From: Pseudomonas mendocina
Lineage (GTDB): Bacteria > Pseudomonadota > Gammaproteobacteria > Pseudomonadales > Pseudomonadaceae
DNA: 64,000 nucleotides
Direction of reading: 5' to 3'
Assembly (NCBI RefSeq): GCF_003008615.1
Contig: NZ_CP027657.1
Span: 3,224,001-3,288,000, forward strand
Position numbers and translations under genes: made by a program
Notes under the pieces: model-generated
Seen by the model: the letters and a program-made list of their open reading frames with translations, nothing else
Told to the model about the DNA's origin: nothing
Databases searched by the model: none
Part shown: piece by piece, positions 42,814-47,153 of the stretch
How positions within the stretch are numbered: the stretch's first letter is position 1
How the letters are laid out: each line of letters opens with the position of its first letter

Positions 42814-42972
42814 ATGAATATTGTTAATGGGCAAGTGGCTGAAGATGTGAACTGCGAGGCGGATGCTATGCGTAAGCAGTGGAAGTCGCCGGTTGTCGAG
42901 GTGCATGAAGTCGAGGATCTGACAATGGCAGGCTCCACTAACACGAATGATGGTGTCGGTGGCTCTAGCTAA
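42814..42972 (+). CDS. Lasso-peptide-like RiPP precursor
   Basis: A 52-residue precursor with strong ribosome site GGAGGG five bases before the ATG. The leader carries W23-x-x-P26-x-V28, like the Y/W-x-x-P-x-L motif bound by PqqD-type RRE proteins, and ends LTM with Thr37 at the -2 position typical of lasso leaders. The predicted core is AGSTNTNDGVGGSS (39-52): Ala1 can be joined to Asp8 to make an 8-residue ring. The TMAG junction and a C-terminal Ser resemble paeninodin-type precursors, whose last Ser is phosphorylated by an HPr-kinase-like enzyme; such an enzyme is encoded nearby. The gene is on the opposite strand to the enzymes. Core boundaries are predicted, not proven. Confidence 0.75.
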   Translation: MNIVNGQVAEDVNCEADAMRKQWKSPVVEVHEVEDLTMAGSTNTNDGVGGSS

Positions 42973-43123
42973 GTAGTTGTGGTTTTTACTGACGAGACGA
43001 CTGGTCTTCTCGAAGGTTGGCTAGTGCTATCGGGGGGGCAGGAGGGCGTTACAATTTTCGCTCGTCTTGTTTTTTCCAGTGGAGCCGTAGTAGTCGATGA
43101 GGAGACAAGTTCGTCTTTGATGG

Positions 43124-45067
43124 CTATGGGAGCATATTTTTCGCTGCGGCCATATGTATAAAATGCCCAATTGCGATAAGTCGCAGTAGCTTGAAGTTTT
43201 TTTGGGTTTCACTGCTCTGGTCTGACGAAGAAAAAGCCTCTAACTGGTTCTGAATGAATGACATGTCGAGAAGGCTGCATGCCAGTGGTTGCTTTTGAAA
43301 TAACTCGAGCTCGCGATAAAGTTCGTGCTGCTCTTTATTTATTTTGTATTTCCAGTCCGCCCCTTGTTTGCCTTTTGTGCGGGAGTTAATTGTTGCGGAT
43401 GGCCAGTAGCGTTTTAATGCTCGTCTTAGTAGCCAACGATTAGTGCCGTTTTTATGGAATTGTTCTACTGGAATCGATTGGCAGTAGTTAATCAGGCGTA
43501 TATCTGCGGTGGGGTCGCGTCCGTCAACTCCGCTAAGTGCTAGTCGCCCTTTACCATATTCTGCACTGTCTAGTCGGGTCAGTACCTTCTTGCGCCACTG
43601 CCTGCTTTCTTCTCGGCGCGTAGTCATGTTGGGGTAACGTCCTAGCTGGCTGCAATATTCCTGCAGTATTGGGTCTGCCAAAAGAGTGGGATTGATCCCT
43701 TGTGCGAGGGAAATGTTTCCCCTGATCCTTTGTATTGTTGGTTCAAGGAAACTCTGAAGTTTGCCGGGTAGAGAGGGGGCGAGCATCTTGTAGAGGGTAT
43801 GCAGTCGTGCACGGTTACTGATGCCGCGCAGTTGAAAGTTAAGCTGTTGCAGTAAAACCGATATCTTGCGTTCTCGCAGAAGCGAGTTGAGTACATGGTC
43901 GCCATGGTAGCTGATGGTGAAGTTGCCCAAGTCGCCAACTAATAACGTGGTTGCTCCTTGTGTCGCTGAAATTCTGGCAATATGCATATCCCAGAGTAAA
44001 TTCACTACATTCTTGGCTGGGCGATTATAGAGTCTGAACATTTTTTCCAGCATATCCACTATGCTGGCTTCGTCGGTTCTGACTAAATGATGGTGGATGT
44101 TGGGGAATAGGGCCGCAACCTGCGCTGCTAGGGGGCCCTCGTCCAATACTTGTCTGGAAGACGTTGGCAGCCCGGCAGGATTGGGCACGGATGTAAATGC
44201 ATGCAGGCTTTGGCTTGTTTCTGCCAGTTGACGAGCCGCTATGCTGCTGATTGTGGCGCTATCGAACCCAGCGCTTAGTTGGCTGGCTATACCACCTGTT
44301 GAGCGGAGACGGCAGCGCACGGCCTCTTCGAGTTTTTCCACGAAAGCATCGACATAGTCATCATTGGATTTGAAATAAATACGCTCTTCTGTTGATGGTT
44401 CCCAGTAACGTCTGGAATGGTAGGTGCCGTCAGCATGAAGGAGCGCCCAATGGCCGGGCAACAGGCGTTTGATATTCGCAAAGTAACTGTGCTCTGAAGT
44501 ATCTGGTAGCAGAAGCAATAGATCGCGTATCCGCTCTTCATCTGGGGCTGTCGCTACTTCGGGTAGTGCCAGCAATCCTGCTGGCATGGAAGCAAAGCCA
44601 AACCAGCCATTACCTTGGTGATAGAAAAGAGGGCGCTTGCCCATCTGGTCACGGGCGATAAAGAGGCTTTGCCGCTCTTTATCCCATATAGCGAAGGCAA
44701 AATCTCCTAGCAGATGATCGAGTAGTTGTTGCTCCCATTTCTCATAGGCAGTCAGTAATACATCGGCATCCGCCATGTGTTTCAAGCGGACAGAGGGGAT
44801 GTTCAGTTTATGGCCGAGCTCTGCGCGATTATCCAAGCGGACATCAGCAACCAGCACAAATCTTCCATTGCCACCTTGTAGAGGTTGATGGTCGTGTTGA
44901 TCTTCTGGCAGAAGCCTTGTAAGACGACTGCCCAGCGCTGCATGCAGTCCATCCCACATCCCTTGTGTGTGGCGGCCATAAGGCTCTAGAGCTGCGTGAA
45001 CGATGCTGCAGCGCCTGGCGGCATTAGGGGTCTTGTCTAGCTGGATAAGCCCGCAAATAGCGCTCAT
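43124..45067 (-). CDS. Asparagine-synthetase-like lasso cyclase
   Basis: A 647-residue AsnB homologue. The N-terminal glutaminase-like domain starts MSAICGLIQL, so no Cys stands at position 2 and ammonia production is unlikely. The synthetase domain has the ATP-binding SxGxDS motif as LSAGFDSATI. This architecture fits lasso cyclases, which adenylate the ring Asp/Glu and join it to the core N-terminus. It is last in a minus-strand operon and converges on the precursor gene. Ordinary asparagine synthetase is the alternative, but the RiPP context and N-terminus favour a cyclase. Codon usage is visibly AT-richer than in the flanking core genes. Confidence 0.8.
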   Translation of the reverse strand: MSAICGLIQLDKTPNAARRCSIVHAALEPYGRHTQGMWDGLHAALGSRLTRLLPEDQHDHQPLQGGNGRFVLVADVRLDNRAELGHKLNIPSVRLKHMADADVLLTAYEKWEQQLLDHLLGDFAFAIWDKERQSLFIARDQMGKRPLFYHQGNGWFGFASMPAGLLALPEVATAPDEERIRDLLLLLPDTSEHSYFANIKRLLPGHWALLHADGTYHSRRYWEPSTEERIYFKSNDDYVDAFVEKLEEAVRCRLRSTGGIASQLSAGFDSATISSIAARQLAETSQSLHAFTSVPNPAGLPTSSRQVLDEGPLAAQVAALFPNIHHHLVRTDEASIVDMLEKMFRLYNRPAKNVVNLLWDMHIARISATQGATTLLVGDLGNFTISYHGDHVLNSLLRERKISVLLQQLNFQLRGISNRARLHTLYKMLAPSLPGKLQSFLEPTIQRIRGNISLAQGINPTLLADPILQEYCSQLGRYPNMTTRREESRQWRKKVLTRLDSAEYGKGRLALSGVDGRDPTADIRLINYCQSIPVEQFHKNGTNRWLLRRALKRYWPSATINSRTKGKQGADWKYKINKEQHELYRELELFQKQPLACSLLDMSFIQNQLEAFSSSDQSSETQKNFKLLRLIAIGHFIHMAAAKNMLP

Positions 45068-45085
45068 TGTTTGTCCTTAACAATC

Positions 45086-45919
45086 TCAGAGATATCCAAG
45101 GCGTCGCATGACCTGACCGTGATCGTGCTCGATTTGCGCAACTTGTGCAGGTGTTAGCACCTCTTTCCAGCCTCCGGCCTTGCCTGAACGAAAGAAATGC
45201 CTACCTGGCGCCATAGTCTCTTTGAACCCGTTCTGTGTTTCCTGCTTTTTCAATTCGCTGAAGCGAGTGTTCAGGGCTGCTTGTTCGTAAATTTCGATTG
45301 TCTTGTCTAGCCCCGCGTGATGTGCGATACGCGCCCCCTGTTGGACTGGATCCGCAAGCATGTCTTCATAGCGCACCAGAAGTGGAGAGGGATGGGCCTG
45401 ATCGAGCCAGCTTTCCACGTGTTGACTCCAGGTGAGAAGTGGTTGGCTTGTATTGGGTGTGAACTTCGTAGCGCTGTGACCTAGAGCTGAGTCGGGAGTG
45501 GCCATGCGTTTTATGGCGTAATCAACGGATTGTCCGAGGTGATGGGCAAAGGAGATGGCCACGTCACGTGGGTCACGCACGATATAGATACTGGAGTGGG
45601 TCAGCTCCGGAGGGAAAAGTGGCAGCCCTTCTGAATTACGTACCCAGGCATCGTGAACCTTGTGCAGGCTTACGCCCTTGACTAGGCGACTGTAGGTGGA
45701 CATGGCCACAGGTCGTGCTGACAATATCTCTTCCTGTGTTAGATCTGCCGTAGCTATGCCGAGCAAGTCATCCAGAAAATAGCGAGACGAGGGTTGCGTT
45801 ACGATATCCAACTTATTGATATCTATGGGGCGGCCATCTTGTTTGACACTACTCAGAAAGGCCCTTACCCAGGTATTGCCGGATTTGGGATAAGACGCCA
45901 GCCAGATAAAAGCACTCAT
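45086..45919 (-). CDS. PAPS-dependent sulfotransferase in the RiPP cluster
   Basis: A 277-residue sulfotransferase with the 5'-phosphosulfate loop YPKSGNTWVRAF at residues 10-21 and the 3'-phosphate loop IYIVRDPRDVAISF at about 112-125. It would move sulfate from PAPS to a hydroxyl group. It overlaps the kinase gene (ATGA) and stands 18 bases before the cyclase gene, so it belongs to the same operon. The predicted core offers Ser and Thr hydroxyls but no Tyr. Sulfation of the peptide is a prediction; sulfotransferases are not part of the classical lasso set. Confidence 0.85.
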   Translation of the reverse strand: MSAFIWLASYPKSGNTWVRAFLSSVKQDGRPIDINKLDIVTQPSSRYFLDDLLGIATADLTQEEILSARPVAMSTYSRLVKGVSLHKVHDAWVRNSEGLPLFPPELTHSSIYIVRDPRDVAISFAHHLGQSVDYAIKRMATPDSALGHSATKFTPNTSQPLLTWSQHVESWLDQAHPSPLLVRYEDMLADPVQQGARIAHHAGLDKTIEIYEQAALNTRFSELKKQETQNGFKETMAPGRHFFRSGKAGGWKEVLTPAQVAQIEHDHGQVMRRLGYL

Positions 45920-46815
45920 GATGCGGCTACATGCTCAATCAGTTCGATAGTGCTATCTAGCTGCGAGAGGTCATCTGGGCGTTGCAGAACCATTACTGGA
46001 ACGTTGCTGATCAATTGTCCCAGCTGCTTGAAATAGGTCTGTTCTGCGCCAAGCAGTCGTGACAAGCGTTGTCGATAAATATGTGTGCGAAGTTGTGCAA
46101 GTGCGCTGATTTTGTCTAGCGTTAATAGTTCGGCAGAAGCAATGTATTTTCTAGGGGCCAGAATAATAATGGTTTGTAGTCGGGTGGGAAGATTGTTGAA
46201 GTCTGAATTTGCTGGGTAGTGGAATTTCTGCAGGCCAGTCCTTGCCTTGCTGAGATTGTTGGTCTGAATGGTCAGCGCATCAGCAGCATCTTGCCATAAC
46301 TTTATGCTTGGAAAGCCGGGCTGTACTTCAGTTCTGAGTGGATCTAGGACGCTAATGTCGTCGCACAGAAGCTGGTGGCCGCGTTTGATCAGTGCTGTGG
46401 CGGTGGTTGATTTCCCTGCGCCAGACTGTCCTACCAGAGTAATCGCAGCATCGCCTATCCTCACGGTGGCTCCATGTAAGGGTAAGGCCCGTCTTTGGTG
46501 GCAAATCAATCCTAGAGCTGGGCCCAGCAGGAAAGTCATGATCTCTCCCTGCGTGGTTTCATTGCCTGCTTCTATGATTATCTGTTGTCCTGCCGATACC
46601 AGAATTGACAATCTGCCGCTTATGCGTATGAGCGCTTTTCCATTGGAGTAAAGAGTCAAGAATGGGCTGGAAAATAAGACTGGCTGATCGATGGAGGGGA
46701 TGGCCGCATGCGTAACATGAATATCCGGTGTGAGTTGAGGCAAGTTAAGTATACTCAACAGGGGAAGGGGACTATCTGAGCGTAGGTGCCATCCACATAG
46801 GGAATAATCAAACAT
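45916..46815 (-). CDS. HPr-kinase-like peptide kinase
   Basis: A 299-residue protein related to HPr kinase/phosphorylase: Walker A GQSGAGKST at residues 129-137, LPLHGATV before it and a CDD acidic pair at 151-153. Proteins of this kind in lasso clusters (paeninodin) phosphorylate the C-terminal Ser of the precursor. NCBI-type annotation would probably be HprK-related kinase A. The predicted precursor here ends in two Ser residues, which fits. No HPr gene is nearby. It is second in the operon, 59 bases after the PqqD-like gene. Confidence 0.82.
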   Translation of the reverse strand: MFDYSLCGWHLRSDSPLPLLSILNLPQLTPDIHVTHAAIPSIDQPVLFSSPFLTLYSNGKALIRISGRLSILVSAGQQIIIEAGNETTQGEIMTFLLGPALGLICHQRRALPLHGATVRIGDAAITLVGQSGAGKSTTATALIKRGHQLLCDDISVLDPLRTEVQPGFPSIKLWQDAADALTIQTNNLSKARTGLQKFHYPANSDFNNLPTRLQTIIILAPRKYIASAELLTLDKISALAQLRTHIYRQRLSRLLGAEQTYFKQLGQLISNVPVMVLQRPDDLSQLDSTIELIEHVAAS

Positions 46816-46857
46816 GGCGTATCTTACAATCCATTGTTGTACTTGATGTTATTAAAC

Positions 46858-46876
46858 AAGTGTGCAAGACACACTT
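46858..46876. other. Hairpin at the end of the PqqD-like gene
   Basis: AAGTGTG-CAAGA-CACACTT forms a 7-bp stem across the PqqD-like stop codon, inside the operon. It may act as a weak attenuator that lowers expression of the enzymes relative to the recognition protein. Confidence 0.4.
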
Positions 46877-47153
46877 ATTCGTGGATTTCTATCAAGTGGT
46901 TCTCTGCCAGCATGGTAAGGACTTTGCAAACGTCCGCCTGTATGGTTTTCAGGTCAGCATCGTAGTCATTGGCCAAGGCGCTGCATAAGTCTAATAACAG
47001 TGGCTGGCTGTCGAGTCGATTCCAGATGTCCGTACTGATATCGTCGAAGGCAAAGTATTTGCCGGAATCAACCCCCAGTAGGACGATCTTGCCATCTATT
47101 TCTGATGCGAGCTGATCCAGTCGCTTGCTGACTCGTGCATTGAGTGAAAGCAT
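46875..47153 (-). CDS. PqqD-like RiPP recognition element (B1-type)
   Basis: A 92-residue PqqD-family protein: a small beta-strand/helix start (IDGKIVLLGVDSGKYFAFDDISTDIW) and a helical second half (LCSALANDYDADLKTIQADVCKVLTMLAENHLI). In lasso systems the B1 protein binds the leader and delivers the precursor to the B2 protease and cyclase. The ATG at 47153 is chosen because the upstream in-frame extension is low-complexity and AT-rich. It is the first gene of the minus-strand operon. Confidence 0.83.
   Translation of the reverse strand: MLSLNARVSKRLDQLASEIDGKIVLLGVDSGKYFAFDDISTDIWNRLDSQPLLLDLCSALANDYDADLKTIQADVCKVLTMLAENHLIEIHE

Follow-up and report, generated by a model that had tools for sequence, protein, structure and literature searches.

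Kinase-tailored lasso peptides provide the closest described precedents for the gene cluster examined here. In the paeninodin system of Paenibacillus (PadeK/ThcoK), a B1 protein and an AsnB-like cyclase accompany an HprK-like kinase with the His-Lys-Asp-Asp residues conserved in lasso kinases, and the peptide has a C-terminal Ser (PMC9266682, PMC10368454). Proteobacterial kinase clusters, such as that of SyanK, follow the gene order A B1 B2 C K D (PMC5067487). The bsf cluster of Bradymonas, with a predicted Asp8 ring and a B1 protein, encodes a kinase with the same residues, BsfK, which acts on Ser3 of a precursor bearing Ile(−2) (PMC10368454). Lasso clusters that contain both a kinase and a sulfotransferase gene have been in print since 2014, when an HPr kinase and a sulfotransferase of unclear role were noted in some clusters from anaerobes (PMC4289311); Zhu 2016, as cited in PMC8498205, reported some Firmicute clusters that begin with a sulfotransferase gene. 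These clusters are reported without characterized sulfation, and our searches of the open-licence literature showed no characterized sulfated lasso peptide. Here, we analyze a related cluster of a ribosomally synthesized and post-translationally modified peptide (RiPP) in Pseudomonas mendocina, located in a stretch of 64,000 nucleotides (NZ_CP027657.1, positions 3224001-3288000; hereafter, the window) of a 5.77-Mb single-contig genome.

Four enzyme genes on the minus strand, ordered B1, kinase, sulfotransferase, and cyclase, meet a convergent gene for a 52-residue precursor (Table 1). The initial annotation had grouped all of these into one operon. This stands for the enzymes, whose genes are separated by 59 bp (B1-kinase) and 18 bp (sulfotransferase-cyclase) or overlap by 4 bp (kinase-sulfotransferase), but not for the precursor, which lies on the opposite strand with 151 bp between its stop and that of the cyclase. 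We interpret the locus as probably a divergent paeninodin-type, kinase-tailored macrolactam RiPP cluster that is incomplete in cis, with its B2 leader peptidase presumably supplied in trans. B1, the cyclase, the kinase residues, and the C-terminal Ser are shared with paeninodin; unlike paeninodin, the cluster has no local B2 or transporter, a precursor convergent to the cyclase, and a sulfotransferase in the operon. The split B1, cyclase, and kinase are likewise found in the A B1 B2 C K D clusters, from which the locus differs in lacking B2 and D and in carrying the sulfotransferase. Compared with the anaerobe and Firmicute clusters, which also hold kinase and sulfotransferase genes, the pair in the window overlaps, recurs in a gammaproteobacterial genus, and has no B2 in cis.

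Table 1. Genes of the predicted cluster and the adjacent collar-domain genes (window coordinates).
Feature	Coordinates	Strand	Evidence and remarks
Precursor peptide A, 52 residues	42814..42972	+	leader 1-38 (W23-x-x-P26-x-V28, T37 at −2)
Predicted precursor core			AGSTNTNDGVGGSS; Asp8, C-terminal Ser-Ser
AsnB-like macrolactam cyclase C	43124..45067	-	PF00733 (Asn_synthase), PF13537 (GATase_7); SAGFDS ATP site
PAPS sulfotransferase	45086..45919	-	PF00685 (Sulfotransfer_1) E 5e-28
HprK/PEPCK-fold peptide kinase K	45916..46815	-	Hpr_kinase_C; H114, G129, G132, G134, K135, S136, D152, D153
B1, stand-alone PqqD-like RiPP recognition element	46875..47153	-	PF05402 E 4e-15; NF033536 E 8e-15
Tail-collar-domain protein, 171 residues	41987..42502	-	PF07484 E 1e-28; 311 bp from precursor start
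Tail-collar-domain protein, 178 residues	41409..41945	-	PF07484 E 2e-25
Tail-collar-domain protein, 181 residues	40833..41378	-	PF07484 E 4e-24

The precursor is, judging by its relatives, a genuine gene. Its ATG is preceded by GGAGG 6 bases upstream, a good ribosome-binding site, and it contains what had been claimed for it: WKSPVV matches W-x-x-P-x-V, and a TMAG junction, with the predicted cut between TM and AG, places Thr at −2. Against 5.8 billion proteins, the precursor sequence alone retrieved four homologues (E 1e-13 to 1e-25), and a five-row profile returned 13 (E 4e-11 to 9e-33, 49-96% identity), of which four had served as rows of that profile and one (P0001, 96%) is seemingly the database cluster containing the window's own precursor. 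Homologues from both searches rule out a chance open reading frame (ORF). Across the 14 precursors, window included, the leader residues K21, W23, P26, E29, H31, V33, D35, L36, and T37(−2) are kept, as are G2, T4, N5, D8, G9, and the final Ser-Ser of the core; the first 20 leader residues are variable, as are positions 1, 3, 6, and 7 of the core. All 14 combine a [YW]-x-x-P-x-[LVI] leader motif with Thr(−2), and all have Asp8, within core positions 7-9 where an Asp or Glu macrolactam acceptor is sought. The cores are 13-14 residues long, which leaves a tail of 5-6 residues beyond Asp8. The last Ser is invariant, whereas position 3 is S, P, A, or I; with Ser there in only 5/14, we rejected a BsfK-like kinase site at core position 3. 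The variable position 3, invariant last Ser, and Thr(−2) set these precursors apart from that of the bsf cluster.

The enzymes assigned by the initial annotation were recovered by Pfam (Table 1), and all four ORFs are full length with intact motifs. The kinase contains all eight residues named for lasso kinases, and H114, K135, D152, and D153 are invariant in 9/9 aligned kinases. Its AlphaFold model (mean predicted local distance difference test score of 91) best matches PEPCK folds, followed by HprK folds. The sulfotransferase, predicted to use 3′-phosphoadenosine-5′-phosphosulfate (PAPS), retains YPKSGNTW, RDPRDV, and GKAGGWK, which we take to be the PAPS-site motifs for binding the 5′- and 3′-phosphates; among solved structures, its nearest relatives are SULT1A-type enzymes, and the bacterial TEG12 ranks lower. 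For B1, solved-structure matches at E <= 0.001 numbered two, TbiB1 and a lasso PqqD chaperone. The cyclase begins MSAICG, with Ser at position 2 and Cys at position 5, and therefore has no Cys2, as had been noted. An Rfam search of the window gave no match; promoter and terminator counts were 6 (5.7 expected) and 2 (5.0 expected), respectively.

From these genes and motifs, we infer the chemical steps as follows. B1 would bind the W-x-x-P-x-V leader and present the precursor. The HprK-like kinase would phosphorylate the invariant C-terminal Ser, and the sulfotransferase would sulfate a core hydroxyl, possibly that of the second Ser. A B2 peptidase, most likely that of a second cluster, would cleave after Thr-Met, and the cyclase would link Ala1 to the side chain of Asp8, closing a ring of eight residues and leaving a tail of six. 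The product is thereby predicted to be probably phosphorylated at the C-terminus and possibly sulfated. Given the recurrent gene pair and a short, well-defined core, the action of the sulfotransferase is directly testable by mass.

To the initial annotation, our analysis adds the missing local B2 and transporter, the plug-less tail, and the collar-domain neighbours. Three B2 queries found no B2 among the window ORFs of at least 35 residues; this search, together with PF13471 and NF033537 run on the genome, led us to reject the presence of a divergent, unrecognized B2 there. Both models place the genome's single B2, above cut-off, at 3825097-3825480, which is 554 kb from the window's B1 and within a second cluster of this kind. 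There (L003:2807-9954 and L002:5118-8834), a kinase, sulfotransferase, CobS-like ATPase, CobT/VWA-like protein, and cyclase lie in a row, with three precursor-like ORFs on the opposite strand, convergent to the cyclase. PqqD, B2 (PF13471), ATP-binding cassette (ABC) transporter, and nucleotidyltransferase genes follow 14-18 kb past that cyclase, and the whole sits among genes that we read as polysaccharide genes. The second kinase reaches 25 bits with Pfam, where the cut-off is 33, yet 111 bits with the window's kinase. Two distant ABC-type ORFs in the window share 68-71 bits with the second cluster's transporter, and none lies near the operon. We consider a supply of B2 in trans from this second cluster most likely. 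A parallel is offered by genome G142, in which three kinase loci each have a B1 and an Asn_synthase-type gene but only two B2 genes occur. The missing local B2 raises the question of whether one leader peptidase serves two clusters per cell. Relatives of the second cluster's ATPase-VWA pair recur in L030, L031, L032, L060, and L064.

The comparison covered 28 kinase loci. Besides the window and the second cluster, these comprise eight from a search for relatives, five from plasmids (where 15 records had a kinase match), five from the precursor profile, and eight from a class-level sample (9/369 genomes, own included); a kinase match in G089 was left out. In the other loci, genes were labelled as sulfotransferase, B1, B2, or collar by phmmer, using one to three queries per label, so an apparent absence carries limited weight. 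A sulfotransferase adjoins the kinase in 19 of the 28 loci, including 3/8 in the class sample and 11/12 in the genus, the latter figure being partly ascertained by similarity to the window cluster and including G051, a genome flagged as 9% contaminated. A small ORF beside the cyclase had been expected in related genomes, and precursor-like ORFs do adjoin the cyclase in loci of the wider family, either convergent to it (e.g., L003, L030, L031, L032, L034, L055, L060) or co-directional (L033, L035, L056, L058, L061-L063). A profile of 13 precursors matches 9/398 genomes of the genus, own included. Among the best 120 of 1031 cyclase matches, the top 15 have 55-95% identity, after which identity falls to 41%; cyclases that are 60% identical bear the name Pseudomonas sp. 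among the matches listed. Cyclases at 60-65% identity come from Undibacterium squillarum (P0012) and Pseudomonas sp. LRF_L74 (P0015/P0016). The class-level search for a window-type cyclase found 2/369 genomes, the window's own (1217 bits) and G683 (485 bits). A scan of viral contigs gave 14 loci at 22-34% identity. Scans of genome contigs with the window cyclase and with the precursor alignment were both empty.

Several of these results weigh against a paeninodin-type assignment. All three relevant NCBIfam lasso models fall below their curated cut-offs: NF033524 with the precursor (22 of 27 bits, E 1e-4), NF033535 with the cyclase (326 of 525 bits, E 6e-97), and NF033536 with B1 (55 of 80 bits). 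The proposed check of the precursor against the paeninodin family hence yields a match, but one under threshold. Neither a B2 peptidase nor a transporter gene is present at the locus, and the genome's two B1 proteins match each other at only 35 bits, so the window precursor may not be a substrate of the distant B2. NCBIfam lasso families matched 0/10 precursor-like ORFs of the other loci, which were recognized by their position beside the cyclase and in some cases by a precursor profile built partly from them; the regular expression used for precursors also picked up ORFs evidently due to chance in several loci, window included. The genome-contig, genus-profile, and class-level searches revealed no second genome of the window's own subtype. 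Finally, the tail holds no residue larger than Val in 13/14 precursors, with Phe in P0130 alone. The paeninodin tail is longer; with 5-6 residues and no bulky plug in those 13 tails, threading is doubtful here. The interpretation first proposed is supported in part, as a RiPP cluster of the kinase-tailored lasso type with an adjacent sulfotransferase and a conserved precursor.

A branched macrolactam, made by the same enzymes but with a Gly-rich tail too short to stay threaded, would account for these tails and is a serious contender, if somewhat short of probable. Against it, the wider family has precursor-like ORFs, next to homologous cyclases, with a Phe or Leu close to the end (AGIFS, AGLLS), and phosphate or sulfate carried by the final Ser residues could, speculatively, add bulk. 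The absent B2 may also mean that B2 is dispensable, with maturation proceeding without a leader peptidase or another host protease trimming the leader. By its title, Zyubko 2019 reports pseudomycoidin made without leader and leader peptidase, and B2 went undetected in 10/28 kinase loci, the window and, its distant B2 aside, the L003 stretch included, although three queries can miss a divergent B2. Thr(−2), described as a recognition element for processing (PMC10368454), is nevertheless invariant, which argues that a B2 still reads the precursor, and we regard B2-free maturation as rather unlikely. That B2 and the transporter were lost from a decaying cluster whose remaining genes are on their way out is less likely still: the four enzyme ORFs are intact, homologues share a conserved core but differ in the first 20 leader residues, and 15 cyclases at 55-95% identity head the cyclase matches, as described above. 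We give very little credence to the enzymes modifying collar-domain proteins or a surface polymer, with the small ORF unrelated. Three collar genes are adjacent, and the second cluster lies among presumed polysaccharide genes, but a lasso-type leader and core are present in the small ORF, and similar ORFs are found repeatedly next to the cyclase across many related loci. A kinase-tailored macrolactam cluster with B2 in trans remains our preferred reading.

The three tandem PF07484 genes that abut the precursor, which encode phage-tail-collar domains, are the only three in the genome. In two surveys covering 19 kinase loci in 15 genomes, a collar gene occurs within 10 kb of five (gaps of 1.9-8.8 kb), where uniform placement predicts 0.08 (Poisson P 3e-8), an estimate that ignores the clustering of such genes. 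Without the window's genome, 4/17 loci have a collar gene nearby (P 1e-6); these belong to G051, flagged as contaminated, G142, G594, and G707, the last two from one genus. Collar clusters were counted by hand, and the 10 kb limit was chosen after the first cases had been seen. Not included in the 5/19 is an Azospirillum plasmid on which B1, kinase, and cyclase genes are joined within 10 kb by three "tail fiber" genes, a lasso B2, and a precursor-like ORF that ends in Gly and has no NCBIfam lasso match. Against specificity, collar genes also occur without lasso genes, as triplets in L066-L072 and L075 and as a pair in L076. We found no open-licence literature linking a lasso peptide with a tail collar. 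The recurrence of these neighbours hints at a role other than that of a diffusible antimicrobial. As a long shot, the two C-terminal Ser residues, bearing phosphate and sulfate, might replace a bulky stopper, and the plug-less product, matured by a shared trans B2, might act with the collar-domain proteins and not as a free antibiotic.

Further arrangements were seen near collar genes and kinases. In G142, a lone precursor-like ORF (L073:5138-5323, minus strand) lies directly beside three collar genes; it has no NCBIfam match, and no kinase, cyclase, B1, or B2 was found in the 14 kb read. Also beside collar genes, L074:8753-10915 and L079:4619-6757 each encode a protein of ~100 residues and a periplasmic-binding-like protein, alike by eye. 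The kinase-cyclase cluster on Azospirillum sp. TSH100 plasmid p1 (L055:3788-11815), in which phmmer labels identified no sulfotransferase, includes an aspartyl/asparaginyl beta-hydroxylase and a cupin gene, and a relative of this beta-hydroxylase is also present in L058.

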